Shown here piece by piece: positions 35,768-46,220 of a stretch of DNA of 64,000 nt. Location: positions 1 through 64,000 of the forward strand of contig CAISDA010000008.1 in NCBI GenBank assembly GCA_903884005.1. Direction: 5' to 3'. Below the pieces are notes generated by a model. It was not told where the DNA came from. It ran no database searches and was given only the letters and a program-made list of their open reading frames with translations. The DNA is from an uncultured Ignavibacteriota bacterium. Lineage in GTDB: Bacteria > Bacteroidota > Ignavibacteria > UBA10030 > UBA8401. Position 1 is the stretch's first letter; each line of letters starts with the position of its first letter. A program made the position numbers and the translations under genes.

Positions 35768-37876
35768 ATGCGTATTTCAACGTTAATGACACTTCTTCTC
35801 GTCGGTGCCATGTGTGGTATCACCGGTTGCGCTTCACAAAAAGATGTGATCGTTGCCGAAGTCGCGAGCGAAAAAATCTCGCTGGTAGAATTTGAAACAA
35901 TGTACGCCAAGAATAATGGCGGATGGGATGGAGCCGCAAAAACCTCCATCGATGATCGTGAAAAATTTTTAGACCTCTACGTGAAATATAAATTGAAAGT
36001 CAAAGAAGCGTACGCACGCGGATATGATCAGGATCCGGAGCTTCGCAATGAGTTGAACGATTACAGAAAAAATCTGGCGGTTACCTACGTGATCGATAAG
36101 GAGGTCACCGGACCGGCACTGCAGGAAATGTATAGCCACCGTTCGCAGGAGATTCGCGCGAGCCATATTCTCATCACGGTGAAGGAGAATGCGTCGCCGG
36201 CCGACACGCTCGAGGCATATACCAAGGCGCTTGCGGTCATCGATTCGCTGAAGGCCGGCATTCCATTCGCGGAACTTGCTGTCCGGAACTCACAGGATCC
36301 GTCGGCTGCCAGCAATAAGGGCGACCTGTATTATTTTTCAGGCGGCGCAATGGTCCCTGAATTCGAACAAGCCGTGTTCGCGCTGCAGGTCGGGCAAGTG
36401 AGCCTGAAACCTATCCGCACGCAATTCGGCTTCCATATCATCAAAGTGACCGATCGAAAAACGAATCCGGGCCAGGTGAATCCCGCTCATATCATGAAAC
36501 GCCTGACGCGCACCTCGACTGCGGAAGATTCGGCAACTGCATGGAAGGATATTCGGGTCGTCCTGGATTCGCTGAAGGCAGGAGCGGATTTCGCGGATCT
36601 TGCCCGCCGCCATTCCGATGACACGTACTCAAGCCCGCAAGGCGGCGATCTCGGCCTTATCGAACGACGCAGAACGGTGAAAGAATTCGACTCGGTCGCC
36701 TTCGCACTGCAGGTTGGACATTTTTCGAATGTTGTCGTCACGCCCTTCGGCCTTCATATTATCAAGGTCCTCAAGACGGAGCCCGTGAAATCATTCAAGG
36801 AAATGGAACAGGATCTGAAGGCTGAATACCAGCGCACTCGCTATCAGTCGGATTATAACCGCTTGATCGTTCAGATGAAGAAGCAATACAATTATACGCA
36901 GGACGAGAATGCGCTGGCCGCATTTGCCGCCGCCGCCGATACGACCAAAACGACAGGCGATGCGAAATGGGACAGCACCATCACGGCGCCCCTCCGCGCC
37001 AAAACGCTTCTCACCATCAACGGACACGGTGTGTCCATCGATTCCGTGATCGCGTTGCAGAAGGTCAATTCAGACCTGCAGGCGCTGTCGTTGAAGGATG
37101 CCAAGACGTCGATCAGGACCATCGCCGATAAGATCGGCAGCAGCCTCGTCGTGGAGTATCACGCTCGGCTAATGGAAGATAAATTCCCCCGGTTCAAAGC
37201 GACGATGAAAGAGTACGAAGAGGGCATCCTGCTCTTCAAAGCGGAACAGGTAGAGGTCTGGAATAAAGTCTCGGCGAAGGATTCGCTTCTGCGTCTCTAT
37301 CATAAAGGGATCGCATCCAAATTCACCTGGCCGGACCGTGTGAACGCTCAGGAAATTTTTGTTCCAACCGACAGTATCGCCAGGGAAGTGAAAAGGGCGC
37401 TCGCAGGATACACGCGCGACTCGGTGGCGGCAAAATCAAAACGCTCGAAAAAACAGCAGATCATCACGATCGCGGTTCCCCCTCTCTCGTTCGATTCCGC
37501 CGCTGTTGTGTATAATCAGCATGAAACGACGAAAGGCAAAAAAGGCGTGTATGGCTTCCTTCCCGCAACACAGAATGAAATGACGGACAAAGCATGGAAG
37601 ATGGCCGAAGGCGCTGTAAGCGAGCCGTTCCCATTTGAAAATGGGATCACGATCGTGAAAACGCTGAAAAAAGACCCGGCACGCACGAAGACGTACGAAG
37701 AGGCAATGTCCGAAGTGTCGGGACAGTTCCAGGACGCCGAATCGAAACGCCTGGAAGACGTGTGGCAATCGTACCTGCTCAATAAATATCCGGTCGTGCT
37801 GCATAACGATGTCTTGAAAATGTCGTTCGCGCCTGGAACCCGGCAGGCACCGGCAAAGGATGATCAACAGGAATGA
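35768..37876 (+). CDS. Lipoprotein peptidyl-prolyl isomerase with two parvulin domains
   Basis: A 702-residue lipoprotein (lipobox GITGC) with a SurA-like N-terminal chaperone region. Two parvulin domains follow. The first (about 125-225) has IRASHILITV, GDLYYFSGGAMVPEFEQ and TQFGFHIIKV; the second (about 230-335) has VNPAHIMKRL, GGDLGLIERRRTVKEFD and TPFGLHIIKV. A long charged C-terminal part ends in a region with another parvulin-like YGFLPATQNEM block. It helps fold outer-membrane proteins in the periplasm. It overlaps the next gene by ATGA; CAAGGAG precedes its own ATG. Confidence 0.92.
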   Translation: MRISTLMTLLLVGAMCGITGCASQKDVIVAEVASEKISLVEFETMYAKNNGGWDGAAKTSIDDREKFLDLYVKYKLKVKEAYARGYDQDPELRNELNDYRKNLAVTYVIDKEVTGPALQEMYSHRSQEIRASHILITVKENASPADTLEAYTKALAVIDSLKAGIPFAELAVRNSQDPSAASNKGDLYYFSGGAMVPEFEQAVFALQVGQVSLKPIRTQFGFHIIKVTDRKTNPGQVNPAHIMKRLTRTSTAEDSATAWKDIRVVLDSLKAGADFADLARRHSDDTYSSPQGGDLGLIERRRTVKEFDSVAFALQVGHFSNVVVTPFGLHIIKVLKTEPVKSFKEMEQDLKAEYQRTRYQSDYNRLIVQMKKQYNYTQDENALAAFAAAADTTKTTGDAKWDSTITAPLRAKTLLTINGHGVSIDSVIALQKVNSDLQALSLKDAKTSIRTIADKIGSSLVVEYHARLMEDKFPRFKATMKEYEEGILLFKAEQVEVWNKVSAKDSLLRLYHKGIASKFTWPDRVNAQEIFVPTDSIAREVKRALAGYTRDSVAAKSKRSKKQQIITIAVPPLSFDSAAVVYNQHETTKGKKGVYGFLPATQNEMTDKAWKMAEGAVSEPFPFENGITIVKTLKKDPARTKTYEEAMSEVSGQFQDAESKRLEDVWQSYLLNKYPVVLHNDVLKMSFAPGTRQAPAKDDQQE

Positions 37877-38733
37877 TGAAGCTAGTCTTGGGCGCACGCC
37901 TGGCGGCAATCGCAGGCGTGTGCATGGTGTTTCTGTCCTGCGGCAAACCGCCGGTGCCGACGCAGGACCTCGCTCGCGTCAACGGCCGGTCTCTGACGAA
38001 GGAGATGATTGTTGCGCGCGCCGATGCGCCTCAGCAGCTCACCGATGCGCAGATCAAGATGTACGCGAACCGGTGGGTGATCTCCGAGATCCTCTATCAG
38101 GAGGCGATACGTCAAAAACTAGACCAGTCTGAAGCGGTGAAACGAAATCTGGAAGACGCTCAAAAACAATTGACCGTTGCGGCGCTCCTGGAGAAGGAAA
38201 TTATTTCGGTTCCGCCCGGCGCTGTTGCCGCCGGGAAGGTGCAGGCATACTACGATTCCCATGCCGACGAGTTTGCCGTTCGTGAACAGACCGTCTGGAT
38301 CGGGACCGCCATCTTCCGCGACAGGCGCTCGGCGGAACACTTCCGCGATGCCGCCCTCGGTTCCGAAGGCTGGAGCGCAGCCGTGACCGCCGCCCGGGCG
38401 TCGAATGTGATCGTGGATGCTGCCGACTCCGTCCTTCGTACGCAATCGACGCTCTACCCGAACGAACTCTGGCGCCTGGCATCCGCGATGCGGACGAATG
38501 ACGTGTCGTTTCCCGTAAAAACAAGCGCCGGGTTCTTCGTCATGAACTTGCTCGGCTCCATGAAACGCGGCGAAGCGGCGCCCCTTCGCTTCGTGGAAGA
38601 GAAGATACGGGAACGATTGAGCGTCGAATTACGTCAACAGATGTACAGCGAATATATTGAAATGCTCCGGAAAAAAAATAATGTGCAGTTGTTTTACGCC
38701 GATAAAGATACCCTCGCGTCCGTTGGCGAATAG
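37873..38733 (+). CDS. SurA-like periplasmic lipoprotein, degenerate isomerase
   Basis: A 286-residue lipoprotein (lipobox VFLSC). The N-terminal SurA-like helical region has [16 protein letters not shown] and [14 protein letters not shown]. The following region lines up with a parvulin domain in length, but the usual H-I-L-I and GGDLG motifs are missing, so isomerase activity is doubtful. A chaperone-only role is likely. It lies between two clear parvulin genes and overlaps the upstream one, so it belongs to the same operon. Confidence 0.82.
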
Positions 38734-38768
38734 TGTCATGTCCCGTGGTCGATTATGAAAGCAAATGT

Positions 38769-40061
38769 ATGATGAAAAAATATGGTTATGTGTGGCTGCT
38801 CCTGGTGTGGGCAGTAACGGCGTCGGCCCAGCAAACAGGCCGGCAGCAAACAATTGACAAGGTCGTTGCCGTGGTGGATAAGGAAGTGATCACGTTCTCA
38901 GATCTTGTGTTTTCGGTGCAGCAGTATGCGATGCAGAACAAGCTCGACCCGAAATCGTCCGATGTCCAGTCGCAAGTGCTCGACGGAATGATCAACGACA
39001 AGCTCATCCTCGCTCAGGCTCTCGAGGACAGCGTTATCGTCACGGAAGACGAGATCACCGACCGTCTCGACCGCCAGTTGAACATGCTCGTGCAGCGCGT
39101 CGGTTCGAAGGAAAAACTCGAAGAGATGTACGGCATGCCCATCGCACGCGTCAAGCGCGACTTCCAATATCGCGAAATGATCCGGAAGCAGCTCCTCGTC
39201 GAAAAAGTACAGCAGACCCGCAACGCGTCCCTGGCCGTGTCGCGCCGCGAAGTGGAAGAGTTCTTCGAACAATACCGCGACAGCATTCCCAAAGTTCCCA
39301 CGGAATATGAACTCAGCCACATCTATATACAGCCGAAGCCCGATTCGGCCGTCACTCACGCCGCGTTACGACGCGCCCTCGGGCTCATCGACAGCGTGAA
39401 GGCGGGCACCGATTTCGGCGACCTCGCTAAGCGATATTCCATCGATCCCGGTTCCGCTGCGCAGGGCGGCGATCTCGGCTGGGTCCGCCGCGGCTCGTTC
39501 GTCAAGGAATTTGAAGAAGCAACATTCACACTCAAAGAAAAAGAGATCTCCAAACCCGTCAAGACCCAGTTCGGATATCATGTTATTCAGTTGATGGAAC
39601 GCCGCGGTGAATCCGTGCATCCCCGTCATATCCTGCTGCCCATTGAACAATCACAGGCCAATGACGACTCGACCATCGCCTTGCTGAACCGCATCCGGAT
39701 CCGTCCCGATGCGAAGACGTCGTTTGCCGTCCTCGCCAAAAAATATTCCGAAGACAACGATACGAAGGATATCGGGGGCGATCTGGGCAAAGTGGCCGTC
39801 GATCAGATCGACGCGGCCTATGTGGATGTCGTTAAATCGGCTGCACCGCGTGAAATTACCGAGCCCAAAAAACTTACCGTTGGCAGCAAATACGGATACC
39901 ACATCATTTACGTCCGGTCCGTCGTGCCAGAACACATGATCAATATCAACGATGACTACCACCGGCTCGAACAGCTCGCGCTCCAGGTGAAAAGTACGAC
40001 TCATTATCAGCAGTGGGTCGAAGAAATGCGGAAAACTATTTACTGGGAAAAGAAACTCTAA
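38769..40061 (+). CDS. surA: Periplasmic chaperone SurA
   Basis: A 430-residue soluble periplasmic protein. The signal peptide is [20 protein letters not shown]. The N-terminal domain has [18 protein letters not shown] and [15 protein letters not shown]. Parvulin domain 1 (about 180-290) has [28 protein letters not shown] and [10 protein letters not shown]; domain 2 (about 295-400) has [19 protein letters not shown] and KYGYHIIYV. It delivers unfolded outer-membrane proteins to the BAM complex. An in-frame ATG at 38733 would add 12 residues ahead of the signal peptide and is not preferred. Confidence 0.93.
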
Positions 40062-40413: not shown

Positions 40414-40454
40414 TGTGCGTTGGTTCCCGCTTCCCCGGATCTTTGACATGAATC

Positions 40455-40488
40455 GAGCAGAAGAGAGATCTTTCTGCTCTTTTTTTTT
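40455..40488 (+). terminator. Intrinsic terminator of rpsT
   Basis: Arms GAGCAGAA (40455-40462) and TTCTGCTC (40472-40479), followed by nine T. Confidence 0.92.
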
Positions 40489-40548
40489 CACTCTCGACGG
40501 CGGCGGATGAAGCACGCATCGGTCTCGAAACCGGCTCCATGCCGGTGC

Positions 40549-40576
40549 TTGATTTTTCACAAGAAAGTTTTATATT
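40549..40576 (+). promoter_or_regulatory. Candidate promoter of the NRAMP operon
   Basis: TTGATT (40549-40554), 16 bases, TATATT (40571-40576). Transcription from about 40583 would give a leader of roughly 410 bases before the NRAMP ATG. Confidence 0.45.
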
Positions 40577-40582
40577 GGTTTT

Positions 40583-40993
40583 ACATCGCATGTGCATATA
40601 TGCGTGTCCGTGCATCCATTGATGCGGCTGTGTGTCGGCCGCGCGCCGATGGATCATTCACTAACGAATATGGTTTTATGGACGACCCTGGCAGTAACAG
40701 TACCACGATGTCGGCAGGACCGCTGGCGCATTGTTCCAGCTCTCGCAGTGATGGTCGAGTGGAAGCTTTCTCCTCCGCAGAGTAAGTTCCCTTGATTTGT
40801 TCTCCTTCACTCCCTGTGCCGGCCTGCATCGCGGCGATGTGTGAGTGAAGCGAGAATTGATACGATCCCATACGTGTTCAATCGAATGTCCTGCCCCCTG
40901 TGTGCGCAGCGCCATTCGGTACCCCTCGCAACTCCTCACTCTCTGTGCGCTCATCCTCTTCCATGGTTCCCTTTCTTCGAAATAGGCCGCTCT
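40583..40993 (+). promoter_or_regulatory. Long structured leader of the NRAMP operon (candidate metal-responsive RNA)
   Basis: No convincing gene lies in these ~410 bases. Two nested hairpins are visible. In the first, ATCCAT (40614-40619) pairs with ATGGAT (40649-40654) around an inner stem GCGGC/GCCGC (40624-40628 with 40638-40642). In the second, CTTCACTC (40805-40812) pairs with GAGTGAAG (40843-40850) around an inner stem CATCG/CGATG (40827-40831 with 40835-40839). The patterns of the known M-box and yybP-ykoY riboswitches were not recognised. Confidence 0.45.
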
Positions 40994-42313
40994 ATGTTTT
41001 GGTTGAGTAAAACGATACACACGATCAGCCGCACGAAGAGACGATTGCTCGTCTTGCTTGCAGTGCTGGGCCCCGGTATCATCACGATGGTCGCCGATAA
41101 CGACGCCGGCGGTATCTCCACCTATGCGGTGACCGGTTCGAAATACGGGTTTAATTTTCTGTGGGTCTTCTTCATCCTCATCCCTATGGCATACTACGTC
41201 CAGGAGATGACGGTGCGGCTCGGTGCGGTGACCAAGCGCGGCCACGGCGAAGCGATCTTCGACGGGTTCGGTCCGTTCTGGGGCTGGTTCTCCATTTTCG
41301 ATCTCGCGCTGATAAATTTTCTTACCCTCGTCACCGAGTACATCGGCATGACCGAGGCCATGAGCATGTTCGGCATCCCTCCATGGATCACCTTCCTCGT
41401 CGTGACGCTGATCCTCTTCGGCGTCGTTCTCTCGGGCGAATATTGGACATTCGAAAAGATCACGCTGCTGTTCTGTGTCTTCAACCTCGTCTATATTCCC
41501 GCAGCATTGTGGGCAATGGACATGCCATCCGCTCCCGGATGGGGCAGCGTCATGAAGGGCTTCTACCGTCCCGAATTCCCCGGCGGCTTCACGCCCGATT
41601 TGATCTTCCTGCTCATGGCAAATATCGGGACCACGATCACGCCCTGGCAGATCTTCTTCCAGCAAAGTGCCGTGGTCGACAAGGGCATGGATGTGCACGA
41701 TATTAAAGCCGGACAGATCGATACACTTGTCGGCTCCACCCTGACCGGGATCATCGCCATTTTCATCATCATCACCACCGGAGCGGCCTTTTATTACCAC
41801 ACTCCCCAAATTGTTGTCGAGAGCGCCAAGGATACGGCGAACGCCCTTGCGCCGCTGCTTCCGCACGCGGAAGGGGAATGGGCGCGGCGCCTGTTTGCGA
41901 TCGGCCTGTTCGATGCCGGTTTCCTCGGCGCGCTCTGCATCTCGCTCTCCACATCGTGGGCCGTCGGAGAGGTCTTCGGCTGGGCGCACTCGCTCAATAA
42001 AAGCGTCAAGGACGCCCCGTGGTTCTATGTCGTCTACTTGTTCATGCTCCTCGGCGCCGGCGCGATCGTGCTCATTCCGGGCGCGCCTCTTATCGCCATC
42101 ACGATGTTCGTGCAGGTGGTGGCCGTTACGCTCCTGCCCGCGGCGCTCATGTTCCTCATTCTGCTCCTGAACGACAAGCCCCTCATGGGCGACAATGTCA
42201 ATACGCGGTGGCAGAATATTGCAAACTGGACTATCATTATTTTTGTTATTATTATGTCGACGTTGTTCGCTGTATCAGTGATTTTCCCTGAATTCTTCGG
42301 CGCTGCCCGATAA
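40994..42313 (+). CDS. Divergent NRAMP-family divalent metal transporter
   Basis: A 439-residue membrane protein with about 11 helices and the NRAMP fold. The first helix has GPGIITMVADNDAGG (residues 26-40), where classical Mn/Fe transporters have DPGN. In helix 6 the usual metal-binding MPH motif is replaced by ANIGTTITPWQIFFQQSAV. Loss of the metal-binding Met is known from NRAMP-related magnesium transporters (NRMT), so Mg2+ or a mix of divalent ions is a fair guess. The next gene, 14 bases away, encodes a soluble MgtE-like regulatory module, which supports magnesium. No ribosome site stands out, and upstream in-frame ATGs do not match the family. Confidence 0.88.
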   Translation: MFWLSKTIHTISRTKRRLLVLLAVLGPGIITMVADNDAGGISTYAVTGSKYGFNFLWVFFILIPMAYYVQEMTVRLGAVTKRGHGEAIFDGFGPFWGWFSIFDLALINFLTLVTEYIGMTEAMSMFGIPPWITFLVVTLILFGVVLSGEYWTFEKITLLFCVFNLVYIPAALWAMDMPSAPGWGSVMKGFYRPEFPGGFTPDLIFLLMANIGTTITPWQIFFQQSAVVDKGMDVHDIKAGQIDTLVGSTLTGIIAIFIIITTGAAFYYHTPQIVVESAKDTANALAPLLPHAEGEWARRLFAIGLFDAGFLGALCISLSTSWAVGEVFGWAHSLNKSVKDAPWFYVVYLFMLLGAGAIVLIPGAPLIAITMFVQVVAVTLLPAALMFLILLLNDKPLMGDNVNTRWQNIANWTIIIFVIIMSTLFAVSVIFPEFFGAAR

Positions 42314-42327
42314 GAGAAGAGGCACTT

Positions 42328-43620
42328 ATGACGACTCAAACCGTACAGTCAAACGATTCCGCATCGATCACTCAGGCGCACTACTTCCACAGTTTTTTTT
42401 ATTTTTCACAATTGCTGAAGCGTTCCGTCTGCATGGGGAATAATAAAAAGAAAGTGGGGAAGGTGGCGGACCTCGTCTTCCGTCTTGTCGATCCGTTCCC
42501 CGATGCGGTCGGCATCATTGTCCACCACGGAGGAGGGCGTCCGGACGAGCTCATACCGTGGGAAAAGATCATTAAAATTGAAGACCGCGGCATATTTTAT
42601 GCGCCGGCGGAAAACGGACAGCCCTATCCGAAGTTTGTCGATCAGTCCGGGTGGCTGCTCCTGAATGAACATCTCATGGGCCGGACCATCCTCGACATCG
42701 ACGGGCGCCGCGTCGAAGTCGTCAACGACGTCCACCTGCTGCAGGCGGGCGGAAAATTATTCATCGTGCACGTCGACCTTTCCTTTAACGGTTTCTTGAG
42801 GAAGTGGGGAGTGGACAAATATATTTTCCTGAAGGATAATCTTATCCCCTGGAAATATGTGCAGCCGCTGTCGATGGAGGACACGGGCGCGAAGGATTCG
42901 ATGACGCTCTCGCTGACGCGCGAACAGATCCGGGACCTCCCGGGCGAGGATCTCGCCGACGCCCTCGAAGAACTCACGGGCAACGAACAGCAGGCGGTGT
43001 TCTCAGCGCTCGACTCCGAAAAGGCAGCCGAAGTGCTCACCGAGGCCGAACCCCGCGCGCAGCGCCAGCTCGTCGCCAATTTGCGGAAAGAAAAGGCGCG
43101 GTCGATCATTACGGAAATGTCCGTGCCGCAGCTCGTGGCGCTCTTCTCGGTGCTCTCGCACGACCAGATGTCGTCGATGATGGAATTAGTGCCGAAGGAG
43201 GAGGCCGAAAAGATCCGCGCTCTCCTCGATCAGGATGAGACGGTTGCACGGTCGCTCATGTCCGCGCTCTATGTTGCCGTGCCGGAACACACGACCGCCG
43301 GCGAATTGCTCCATAAGCTCCGTGCATCGGAATACGAATTGGATGCGATCCCGTATATCTATATCGTCGCCGACGACAACCGCCTCATCGGTGTCGTCGA
43401 TCTGCGCGAGATCGTTCTCTCGACCCCCGAGGCGGTGCTCGGGCAGCTCATGACCGCTCCCGTGGTCACCGTGCCCGACATCGAGATCGCCGAAGAGATC
43501 GCCGACCTGTTTGAAAAATATAATTATCATATGCTGCCGGTGGTCGACGCAGACGATCATCTCATCGGCGTCGTCCATTACGACGATATCATGAAGGGAC
43601 TCACCGCCCGTCCCAATTGA
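42328..43620 (+). CDS. Soluble MgtE-like regulatory protein (PRC-like, MgtE_N, two CBS)
   Basis: A 430-residue cytoplasmic protein without membrane helices. The first ~190 residues contain two PRC-barrel-like segments (KKVGKVADLVFRLVDPFPDA; LLNEHLMGRTILDIDGRRVE). Residues ~200-300 are an MgtE_N-type helical domain (LPGEDLADALEELTGNEQQA, EVLTEAEPRAQRQLVANL). The rest is a CBS pair (IPYIYIVADDNRLIGVVDLR; MLPVVDADDHLIGVVHYDD). In MgtE channels this module senses Mg2+ and gates the pore, but here the pore domain is absent. Being directly behind the NRAMP gene, it may control that transporter instead. The first ~35 residues match nothing known. Confidence 0.87.
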   Translation: MTTQTVQSNDSASITQAHYFHSFFYFSQLLKRSVCMGNNKKKVGKVADLVFRLVDPFPDAVGIIVHHGGGRPDELIPWEKIIKIEDRGIFYAPAENGQPYPKFVDQSGWLLLNEHLMGRTILDIDGRRVEVVNDVHLLQAGGKLFIVHVDLSFNGFLRKWGVDKYIFLKDNLIPWKYVQPLSMEDTGAKDSMTLSLTREQIRDLPGEDLADALEELTGNEQQAVFSALDSEKAAEVLTEAEPRAQRQLVANLRKEKARSIITEMSVPQLVALFSVLSHDQMSSMMELVPKEEAEKIRALLDQDETVARSLMSALYVAVPEHTTAGELLHKLRASEYELDAIPYIYIVADDNRLIGVVDLREIVLSTPEAVLGQLMTAPVVTVPDIEIAEEIADLFEKYNYHMLPVVDADDHLIGVVHYDDIMKGLTARPN

Positions 43621-43670
43621 CCTGCAACGTATCGAGAAAAAATGTACCTGCTCAAGCGTAATCTTGAGTC

Positions 43671-43823
43671 CCTGTCATTCTAAGGTTCTCATCTTGAGAG
43701 AGTCAAGAATCTTCAAGCATATGACATGTGTACTCTGTCATTCTGAGCGCAAGCGAAGAATCTTACATCGTATGAGCCGCCGGCAAGATTCTTCAGTCGC
43801 TCGAGTTCCTTCAGAATGGGACA
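43671..43823. repeat. Inverted repeat of the TGTCATTCTGAG...GAAGAATCT type
   Basis: The right part (43736-43823) is a long imperfect palindrome: TGTCATTCTGAGCG...GAAGAATCTT faces AAGATTCTTC...TCAGAATGGGACA. A diverged single copy (TGTCATTCTAAGG...CAAGAATCTT) sits just before it at about 43671-43714. Similar intergenic repeats occur in many bacterial genomes. It lies between the MgtE-like gene and a small membrane-protein gene. Confidence 0.75.
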
Positions 43824-43872: not shown

Positions 43873-44052
43873 ATGCCGCGTATTCACATGACGCGCTCTG
43901 TAAAGATGGCCTTGTATGCGTTGCGCATCTATTTGATCCTGCTGCTGGGACTCATCATCCTGAAGTTCGTGTTGCTGTTCTACAACGGACAAAAAAAAGA
44001 GGCGCCGGTTCACTCGGCGCCTCAATCATCACAACTCCGCAACAGTCTGTAG
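43873..44052 (+). CDS. Small single-helix membrane protein
   Basis: A 59-residue protein with a basic N-terminus (MPRIHMTRSVKMALYALRIY), one strong transmembrane helix (LILLLGLIILKFVLLFY) and a polar tail. AGGAG lies 8 bases before the ATG, a good ribosome site, and an A/T-rich region precedes it. No homologous family is recognised. The last codons overlap a terminator for the opposite strand, and the stop codon itself is part of repeat copy C. Confidence 0.5.
   Translation: MPRIHMTRSVKMALYALRIYLILLLGLIILKFVLLFYNGQKKEAPVHSAPQSSQLRNSL
43991..44023 (-). terminator. Terminator of the minus-strand sua5-to-S9 operon
   Basis: A 9-bp stem GAGGCGCCG/CGGCGCCTC (43999-44007 with 44015-44023), followed on the minus strand by eight T (43991-43998). 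Confidence 0.88.
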
Positions 44053-44150: not shown

Positions 44151-46220
44151 TCACTTCTCGAATTCCTGATTCCGCAGCATCTTCGTCATGTCGTACGGCG
44201 CCGGATCGCCGCCGAGATACCGCTGAAACCAATCCAGATGCGCATTGTAATAGAGCGGCATGGACTTCACCCCGTTGGGCCAGTGCCCGTCGTTCGGGAA
44301 GACGATCAACCGCGATGGCACGTTCATCAACTGGAGATCGGTGAAAAATTCCAGGCTCTGATTGTATGACACTCTATAATCGCGCTCCCCGGTGATGACG
44401 AGGCAGGGAGTCTTGAAGTTTTTCACATACCGGTTCGGCGACCATTGTTCGTACATGCCGCTTTCCCACGGCAGGCCGTTGAGTTCCCATTGCGGGAACC
44501 ATAACTCTTCCGTCGTGCCATGCATCGCTTTCAGGTCGTACACTCCCATCATCGATGCGATGGCCTTGAACCTGGTCGTGTGTCCTTCAAGCCACATCAT
44601 AAAATATCCTCCATACGACCACCCCATCGCTCCCATGCGGTCCTTGTCCACGAACGGCATTTTTTCGAGCGAATCAGCGACCGCCATCACATCGGTGTAG
44701 ACCTTGCCGCCCCAGTCTTTCGAAATGGCTGCAGTGAACTCCTGCCCGTACCCCGTCGAACCGGCCGGATTGCAGAACGCCACGATGTAGCCCGAACCCG
44801 GATAGACCTGCCAGTCTCCTCTGAATGCGTCGGCCCACTGCGATTGCGGCCCGCCATGGACGTTCAAAATGAGCGGATATTTTTTTGACGGGTCAAAATT
44901 GTGCGGCGTCACAAGGAACGTATGGATCGGCTTTCCCGTGGGCGATTGGATCCACAATTCCCGCGCGGGCCGAATGTCCACCGAATCTTCGACCGCTTTG
45001 TTAAAGACTGTCAATCGCCGAACCCCTTTCCCGTTCGTCCCTGCGCGGTAAAGTTCGACGGGTTCATTGATGGACCGGCGTGCGAAGATGATGAAGCTCC
45101 CGTCGGGCGAGACATCGAATGCATCGATGGACTTTGCATCGACGATCTGCGTGATCTCCTTGCTTGCGATGGTGACATTGAACACCGGTGTATGCGCCTT
45201 CACTTCGGCGAGAAAATAAATGCTGCGCGAATCGGGCGCCCATTGTATCTCGGTGATCCAATTGTCGAACCCTTCCGTCAGCACTGTCCGTGCGCCTGTG
45301 CTTCGCTCATATAACCCGATCCTGAAGCAGTCGGACTCATACCCCGGCGTCGCCTGAAGGCGGTATGCAATATACCTGCCGTCCGGTGAATACATCGGAG
45401 ACCCGTCGTACGCCGCATTGTCGCCCGTAATATTCTTCGGCGTTCCGCCTGTTGCAGGCACAATGTAGAGGTCCTTGTTCGTCGTCACCGCTTCGTTCTT
45501 GTCATGGTTCGATACAAAGCACACTTCCTTGCCGTCGGGAGCAACGGCATAGCCGCGTTCGCCCAGAGAGAATGCAGGCGCGTCGAAATCTCCCGGACTG
45601 AGGTCGATGTGCTTTTTTGTGTCGATGTCGAATGCGAATGTATGCGAGCGCGTGCCGTCTTTCCATTCCGTCCAGTGGCGGTACATCAGATGATCCGCCA
45701 TATGCGCCTTGAGCGGGCCCTTCTCTTTCGCATCGTTCGCTTTTTTGTTCATCGCATCGTCGGCGCCGTATTCCGGGTACACATCCGTGGAGAAGATGAA
45801 GTGTTTCCCGTCACCGGTCCATTCGGGGTCTGAAACGCCGGTGGAGATATTCGACAGTTTGGACGGTTCGCCGCCGTCGGCCGGAAGGAGCCAGGCCTGG
45901 GCGCCGTCTGCGCGTGTCGACGTGAACAGCAGCGACGTGCCATCGGGCGACCAGCGCGGACCATTATCGCCGGCCTTGTTGTCCGTCATGCGCCGGAGAC
46001 CGCTGCCGTCAACATTCATCACATAAATTTCTGAATTCGTTTTTCCGTCTTGTAAAAAACTTTCGGTCACCGTAAATGCCACGCGTTTTCCATCCGGCGC
46101 AATGCGTGGATCGGAAACGCTTTTGATCTTGTAGAGATCCTCGATTGCGAATGGCTTTTTCTGCCCATGCATCTGCTGCGCCGCAGCCACGATGAGCACG
46201 ATCATGATAATTTTTTTCAC
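44151..46220 (-). CDS. S9 family peptidase (prolyl oligopeptidase type), exported
   Basis: A 689-residue exported serine peptidase. The signal peptide is MKKIIMIVLIVAAAQQMHG. PD40 propeller motifs include RIAPDGKRVAFTV and YSPDGRYIAYRL. The catalytic half has GWSYGGYFMMW (Ser), TGERDYRVSY (Asp) and FPNDGHWPNG (His). It is 689 residues against 680 for the paralog at 29334, and the two share domain order and the spacer between propeller and hydrolase. It is last in the sua5 operon, 11 bases after rmlD-like. Confidence 0.93.
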   Translation of the reverse strand: MKKIIMIVLIVAAAQQMHGQKKPFAIEDLYKIKSVSDPRIAPDGKRVAFTVTESFLQDGKTNSEIYVMNVDGSGLRRMTDNKAGDNGPRWSPDGTSLLFTSTRADGAQAWLLPADGGEPSKLSNISTGVSDPEWTGDGKHFIFSTDVYPEYGADDAMNKKANDAKEKGPLKAHMADHLMYRHWTEWKDGTRSHTFAFDIDTKKHIDLSPGDFDAPAFSLGERGYAVAPDGKEVCFVSNHDKNEAVTTNKDLYIVPATGGTPKNITGDNAAYDGSPMYSPDGRYIAYRLQATPGYESDCFRIGLYERSTGARTVLTEGFDNWITEIQWAPDSRSIYFLAEVKAHTPVFNVTIASKEITQIVDAKSIDAFDVSPDGSFIIFARRSINEPVELYRAGTNGKGVRRLTVFNKAVEDSVDIRPARELWIQSPTGKPIHTFLVTPHNFDPSKKYPLILNVHGGPQSQWADAFRGDWQVYPGSGYIVAFCNPAGSTGYGQEFTAAISKDWGGKVYTDVMAVADSLEKMPFVDKDRMGAMGWSYGGYFMMWLEGHTTRFKAIASMMGVYDLKAMHGTTEELWFPQWELNGLPWESGMYEQWSPNRYVKNFKTPCLVITGERDYRVSYNQSLEFFTDLQLMNVPSRLIVFPNDGHWPNGVKSMPLYYNAHLDWFQRYLGGDPAPYDMTKMLRNQEFEK

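Follow-up and report, generated by a model that had tools for sequence, protein, structure and literature searches.

The window, that is, the whole stretch of 64,000 nucleotides that was analysed, carries three genes of interest on the forward strand: a metal carrier gene of the NRMT type, a gene for a free cytoplasmic module and a short gene for a single-helix microprotein. The features of the locus are listed below.

40414–40993, forward strand: region upstream of the transporter gene, following the rpsT (S20) gene (Rfam scan; rpsT by Pfam)
40994–42313, forward strand: NRMT-type Nramp transporter, 439 aa, with NDAGG in TM1 and TTITPW in TM6 (Pfam, PDB match, AF2 model, tree)
42328–43620, forward strand: free cytoplasmic module, 430 aa, with two PRC-like domains, MgtE_N and a CBS pair (Pfam/NCBIfam, AF2, Foldseek, VIA-align)
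42391–42867, forward strand: PRC-like beta domains of the module, residues about 22–91 and 109–180 (Pfam PRC; beta strands in the AF2 model)
42919–43233, forward strand: MgtE_N helical domain of the module, residues about 198–302 (Pfam; helices in the model)
43240–43608, forward strand: CBS pair of the module, residues about 305–427 (Pfam CBS; residue table against TtMgtE)
43660–43820, forward strand, limits approximate: intergenic DNA between module and microprotein, with an interspersed repeat containing TGTCATTCTGAGCG
43873–44052, forward strand: microprotein, 59 aa, one predicted TM helix, MPRIHMTRSVKMALYALRIYLILLLGLIILKFVLLFYNG... (HMM matches, ribosome site)

Shortly upstream of these features, three consecutive genes for PPIC-type (SurA-like) peptidyl-prolyl isomerases occupy positions 35768–40061 of the window.

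The Pfam Nramp family (PF01566) covers the transporter ORF along the whole model (1.5e-75). Called mechanically, this ORF opens earlier, at GTG 40841; relatives such as locus L004, whose carrier is 81% identical, align from ATG 40994, which backs the latter start, and the stop is at 42313. Both ORFs lie where a preliminary description of this DNA had placed them, and the Nramp protein indeed lacks the usual metal motifs: DPGN is replaced by DAGG, and (A)xxMPH by TTITPW. By these motifs it is not a classical Nramp/MntH; in the aligned columns, DPGN and MPH are present in 24 of 24 ordinary Nramps from related genomes. Their absence is not a loss but the feature by which a known clade is defined: NRMTs have DxxG rather than DxxN in TM1 and TxxA/T rather than A/CxxM in TM6 (PMC8806188), and the window protein, once aligned, fits this pattern with DAGG and TTIT(PW). 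Its top PDB sequence match is EleNRMT (7qia, 3.7e-66), every MntH scoring 2.5e-16 or weaker, and the AF2 model of the transporter, built from 47 sequences (pLDDT 92.4), has the same 7qia as its best Foldseek match (TM 0.82/0.89). In a rapid maximum-likelihood tree computed for 121 carriers, EleNRMT among them (fast model; some rows on long branches), the NRMTs split from the 24 DPGN/MPH Nramps at support 100. Judged from its sequence, the window transporter is an NRMT-type, SLC11/Nramp-related carrier. One further Nramp relative in the data (L037, 1486–2742), with DPSG and TTISPY, is neither ordinary nor NRMT and sits on a very long branch.

The second gene follows after a gap of 14 nt and encodes, in agreement with the preliminary description, PRC-like, MgtE_N and CBS domains without a pore. 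Pfam detects MgtE_N (2.5e-19) as well as two stretches each of PRC (8e-9) and CBS (2.9e-20), while the MgtE pore domain PF01769 is absent from the module and from the whole genome. The module has no plug helix either, as the positions corresponding to E258 and D259 fall past its C-terminus. Its AF2 model (pLDDT 83.8) shows two beta domains, the MgtE_N helices and the CBS pair; the pTM is 0.42, hence the orientation of the domains is unsure. Residues 193–430 match the MgtE cytosolic domain best in both Foldseek (2.9e-18) and VIA-align (Z about 20, rmsd about 13, i.e., a domain-by-domain match). These fold searches mainly tested the MgtE_N–CBS part, which has the MgtE_N and CBS-pair fold that marks homologues of the MgtE cytosolic domain. 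A search of the open-access literature for the combination of PRC, MgtE and CBS found no paper. Longer module ORFs in three other loci (L065, L076 and L103) turned out to be out-of-frame upstream extensions with no extra domains.

Scanning genome contigs with the module as a single sequence gave no relatives; a profile scan with the NRMT alignment worked and produced 577 loci, the best 80 of which were kept for the survey. The module lies directly downstream of the carrier, on the same strand, in 46 of the 47 nearest NRMT loci (at least 51% identity; from the best 80 of 577, some cut by contig ends), and in the lone exception, L069, the contig ends 128 nt past the NRMT gene. Since 46 of 47 loci share the pairing and the 47th is cut, it is not a matter of chance. 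By record title, these 47 loci from the best 80 of 577 belong to Bacteroidota, Planctomycetota, Proteobacteria, Acidobacteria, archaea and others. No module was found in the flanks examined of the 33 loci at 41–48% identity, likewise from the best 80. Within 148 sampled genomes of the window's phylum, every other module match that covers PRC (L004–L017) adjoins an NRMT. In the tree, carriers with a downstream module form a single branch (SH-aLRT 98; 59 rows including the window). The opposite order, module before carrier, is seen in G078, G097, G151 and other genomes; EleNRMT and the module-first carriers sit elsewhere in the tree, weakly placed. The preliminary description had suggested surveying relatives for both the gene pair and its fusions: the pair is conserved, and no NRMT–module fusion exists at the ORF level among the best 80 of the 577 loci.

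The pairing is not new; it was already reported by Shin et al. in 2014 (PMC4072509). According to these authors, a free gene for the MgtE cytoplasmic domain sits next to most NrmT genes, as it does next to the carrier gene in the window, and feedback regulation or metal chaperoning was proposed for the partial-MgtE gene. The PRC and CBS domains and the microprotein go unmentioned in the main text of that paper (PMC4072509).

NRMT–module pairs also occur on plasmids. In L143 (2012–4724) and L145 (1263–4209), the plasmid NRMT and module genes lie directly beside genes for an ArsR/SmtB regulator and a heavy-metal P-type ATPase; plasmid pairs with such neighbours come from Citrobacter and Cellulomonas, and the Citrobacter plasmid is typed as conjugative. 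Actinobacterial plasmids of Leifsonia and Mycolicibacterium combine NRMT, module and MgtC/SapB genes (L147, 1295–5050; L156, 240–4454). Between the window and L004 (G047, another family of the class), the modules are only 54% identical, as against 81% for the carriers; by this sequence comparison, the module is evolving much faster than the carrier, and the unit may have been transferred horizontally.

The preliminary description envisaged a two-part system. A third conserved gene, the microprotein at 43873–44052, belongs to the unit as well, which thus extends past the positions 40994–43620 given in that description. Outside the window's subclade, most loci proved to have a short ORF with a single, strongly hydrophobic stretch downstream of the carrier. 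HMMs were trained only on other subclades (the second subclade of the module clade, or the module-less clade), and both match the window microprotein (2.5e-11 and 1.1e-10, among 17,356 ORFs); they also find it after the module in L004 and in the 14 uncut loci of L062–L077. A free microprotein is present in 76 of the 80 NRMT loci (best 80 of 577), three of the remaining four being contig-cut (L069, L075 and L130) and the fourth, L137, having the microprotein fused to the transporter. All free-standing matches below 0.01 lie on the carrier strand at the expected place, with none elsewhere. In L104, where the carrier ORF is broken, and in L143, the microprotein fits by position. The observed gene orders are NRMT–module–microprotein (the window type), NRMT–microprotein–module and NRMT–microprotein. 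Loci added later also have the gene, save for the module-first loci and one with too short a flank. No microprotein was found in the clade of EleNRMT-like and module-first carriers, indicating that it is not a general requirement of NRMT transport.

The conserved core of the microprotein comprises about 36 residues (about positions 1–37) and is followed by a variable tail. Within this core lies an LRxYL motif; among 22 aligned members, its L and Y never vary. Codon changes fall mostly in third positions, with pS of 0.49 versus pN of 0.10 (53 close, non-independent pairs), which points to purifying selection at the protein level. Of 88 copies, 70 have a ribosome-binding-like site ahead of them; in the window it is AGGAG before the ATG. 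Pfam gave no match for the window microprotein and single stray matches among the 22 members, NCBIfam gave no convincing match for five members, a PDB search retrieved nothing and searches of the open-access literature found no mention. Apparently, the microprotein has not been described before. Its gene in the window starts 252 nt beyond the module, behind the repeat, and co-transcription with the module is therefore not certain here; TGTCATTCTGAGCG has 43 exact copies in the genome, compared with 0 for a reversed control. A strong terminator-like hairpin (43999–44023) for the peptidase gene on the opposite strand (44151–46220, reverse strand) lies within the variable tail, so this tail may be unimportant.

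At their C-terminus, eleven plasmid-borne NRMTs (530–579 aa) from Actinomycetota, Burkholderiales, Hyphomicrobiales and Alicyclobacillus have a helix that resembles the microprotein. Profiles of the fused helix and of the microprotein matched with probabilities of 92.6% and 90.1% (E values of 4.5e-7 and 1.6e-6). An HMM of the fused C-terminal helix matches free microprotein ORFs down to 6.1e-6 and hits L137, the sole uncut locus among the best 80 of 577 without a free copy, at 1.6e-19; the L137 carrier thus bears the fused helix. Strict linkage combined with fusion usually marks a physical subunit, hinting that the microprotein is one. Positive residues before the helix suggest an N-in orientation of both the free and the fused forms.

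We consider it quite probable that the locus encodes a three-gene NRMT importer, most likely for Mg2+, composed of a carrier, a helix subunit and a nucleotide-reading cytosolic module. The NRMT carrier, predicted to have a LeuT-type fold, would move the metal via its DxxG–TxxT site, at which EleNRMT accepts Mg2+ that is still surrounded by most of its water shell. The microprotein helix would pack against the carrier, N-terminus inside, as a structural or modulating subunit. The soluble PRC-PRC-MgtE_N-CBS2 module would dock on the cytoplasmic face of the carrier and adjust transport, with the CBS pair reading an adenine nucleotide rather than using the MgtE Mg2+ relay. The analysis directly shows which genes are present and in what order, their conservation, the motifs, the clade to which the carrier belongs, the selection on the microprotein and, in other lineages, the fusion of a homologous helix to the carrier; from this we infer the substrate in this organism, the physical complex, the nucleotide sensing and the direction of regulation. 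On the scale of the family, we moderately favour the view that a large NRMT branch forms a complex with an obligate microprotein subunit, free or C-terminally fused, and that a sub-branch later gained the nucleotide-reading PRC–MgtE_N–CBS protein.

The preliminary description had called the module the Mg2+-sensing half of a channel, a label made doubtful by a comparison of 53 modules with TtMgtE (site positions from PMC5882242 and PMC5529423). A module that senses Mg2+ in the manner of the MgtE cytosolic domain and shuts the carrier at high cytosolic Mg2+ would have the feedback role proposed by Shin et al. (PMC4072509). The shared fold is consistent with this, and several acidic positions persist: the E59 (Mg7) equivalent is acidic in 48 of 53 modules, D247 is kept in 50 and D95 (Mg6) in 35, the latter not being acidic in the window, where only E59, E216 and D247 have retained equivalents. 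However, D91 (Mg4) is replaced in all 53 modules, and D226 and D250 (Mg5) are mostly lost, both of them in the window, whose Mg-site positions N399 and K423 are changed relative to TtMgtE. The plug helix carrying Mg2 and Mg3 is missing as well, and in TtMgtE mutation of any single one of Mg2–Mg7 blocks closure (PMC5882242); the window module lacks the complete Mg2–Mg7 set and the plug that characterize an MgtE channel. The ATP pocket is mostly kept: the Y170 equivalent is conserved in 53 of 53 modules, F227 is aromatic and V207 is V or I in all, R187 is R/K in 48 and D188 is E/D in 49, but N203 is not conserved; in the window, Y343, R360, E361 and Y400 are retained. With most Mg2+-sensing residues and the plug gone and the nucleotide pocket largely intact, Mg2+ sensing by the module appears unlikely, and it is more likely, from these residues, that the CBS pair reads a nucleotide than that the module repeats the MgtE relay. 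PRC-type beta domains are found in protein-binding contexts, which would suit a module that mainly helps the NRMT to assemble, keeps it stable or hands metal to it as a chaperone, instead of gating it. Chaperone activity was indeed offered as an alternative by Shin et al. (PMC4072509), but the conserved positions of the CBS nucleotide pocket suggest ligand binding, and we regard a mainly assisting role as improbable.

Of the proposed Mg2+ or Mn2+ uptake system with its own sensor, the conserved pair of carrier and free MgtE-like module is supported, most likely for Mg2+; the sensor part is doubtful. M-boxes (Rfam RF00380) lie upstream of the NRMT in L066, whose carrier is 71% identical to that of the window, and in L097, as well as in 6 of 18 module-less sister loci, at a distance of about 280–510 nt from the carrier and with no stop-free stretch longer than 88 aa in between. 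An Rfam scan (E-value mode) of the region upstream of the window transporter found neither an M-box nor any other riboswitch. The M-boxes of the relatives favour Mg2+, the better guess and most likely the substrate of the window carrier. An Alicyclobacillus locus (L113, 2115–5281) has two tandem Nramp-type genes with an M-box between them. The alternative that the carrier imports mainly Mn2+, or another transition metal, with module and microprotein serving Mn homeostasis, draws on A. capsulatum, where an NrmT accompanied by a module rescued a Mn-import mutant (PMC4072509), and on the plasmid relatives beside ArsR and heavy-metal ATPase genes. Mn2+ as the main substrate is nevertheless rather doubtful given the M-boxes in the same and sister clades, the NRMT-type site and the fact that no Mn riboswitch was found; moreover, the genome, which has one CorA and no MgtE pore, possesses one other Nramp, a separate and ordinary one with DPGN and MPH. 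The microprotein could likewise be an independent small gene near the NRMT with no action on the carrier: its position varies (before or after the module), and a repeat lies between the two genes in the window. Such independence is very unlikely, as the gene adjoins NRMT or module in every uncut locus of the branch (best 80 of 577), in bacteria and archaea, its HMM has no match (E < 0.01) at ordinary Nramp loci and the helix is fused to NRMTs elsewhere.

Few Nramp relatives are known to import Mg2+, and the literature consulted describes the characterised carriers it names without any microprotein. In the module-first A. capsulatum system, a co-expressed module did not improve Mg2+ rescue, although the carrier rescued Mn2+ import (PMC4072509). 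If most of the clade studied here depends on the microprotein, and part of it also on a CBS regulator, this could partly account for the null effect of the module in that single published test, which used the other arrangement; microproteins are easily missed by annotation. The proposed three-gene importer provides a testable case of an SLC11-family carrier with a dedicated accessory helix, and the natural fusions should ease expression and structure solving.

Known from earlier work is the pairing of NRMT with a partial MgtE; what is added here is the downstream-module branch, the residue analysis and the microprotein as a third gene. The C. acetobutylicum Ca_c0685 and A. capsulatum Acp2976–2977 systems (PMC4072509) likewise place an Nramp-related carrier beside a free MgtE-cytoplasmic gene, some under an M-box. 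The module is upstream of the carrier in A. capsulatum, whereas in the window it is downstream and there is no M-box. EleNRMT of Eggerthella lenta (7qia, 7qji; PMC8806188) shares the DAGG and TTxxPW site and the fold with the window carrier, but the two are about 33% identical and EleNRMT belongs to a different, weakly placed tree branch; the portion of EleNRMT that was examined contains no microprotein helix. The TtMgtE cytosolic domain (2yvy, 5x9g) and the module have in common the MgtE_N and CBS fold, about 30% identity and most ATP-pocket positions. Unlike TtMgtE, the module has neither pore nor plug, has lost the acidic residues of Mg4 and Mg5, carries two extra N-terminal PRC-like domains and is encoded by a separate gene. 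Small proteins of about 30–60 aa with a single TM helix, such as KdpF, CydX, AcrZ and MgtS, accompany large membrane proteins. Single-helix accessory microproteins of membrane complexes have been described for AcrZ (PMC7267776) and CydX (PMC4325964). The microprotein of the window resembles KdpF, CydX, AcrZ and MgtS in this one-helix format, a likeness of format and not of demonstrated sequence relation; it differs from them in going with an NRMT and in being fused to its carrier in some lineages.
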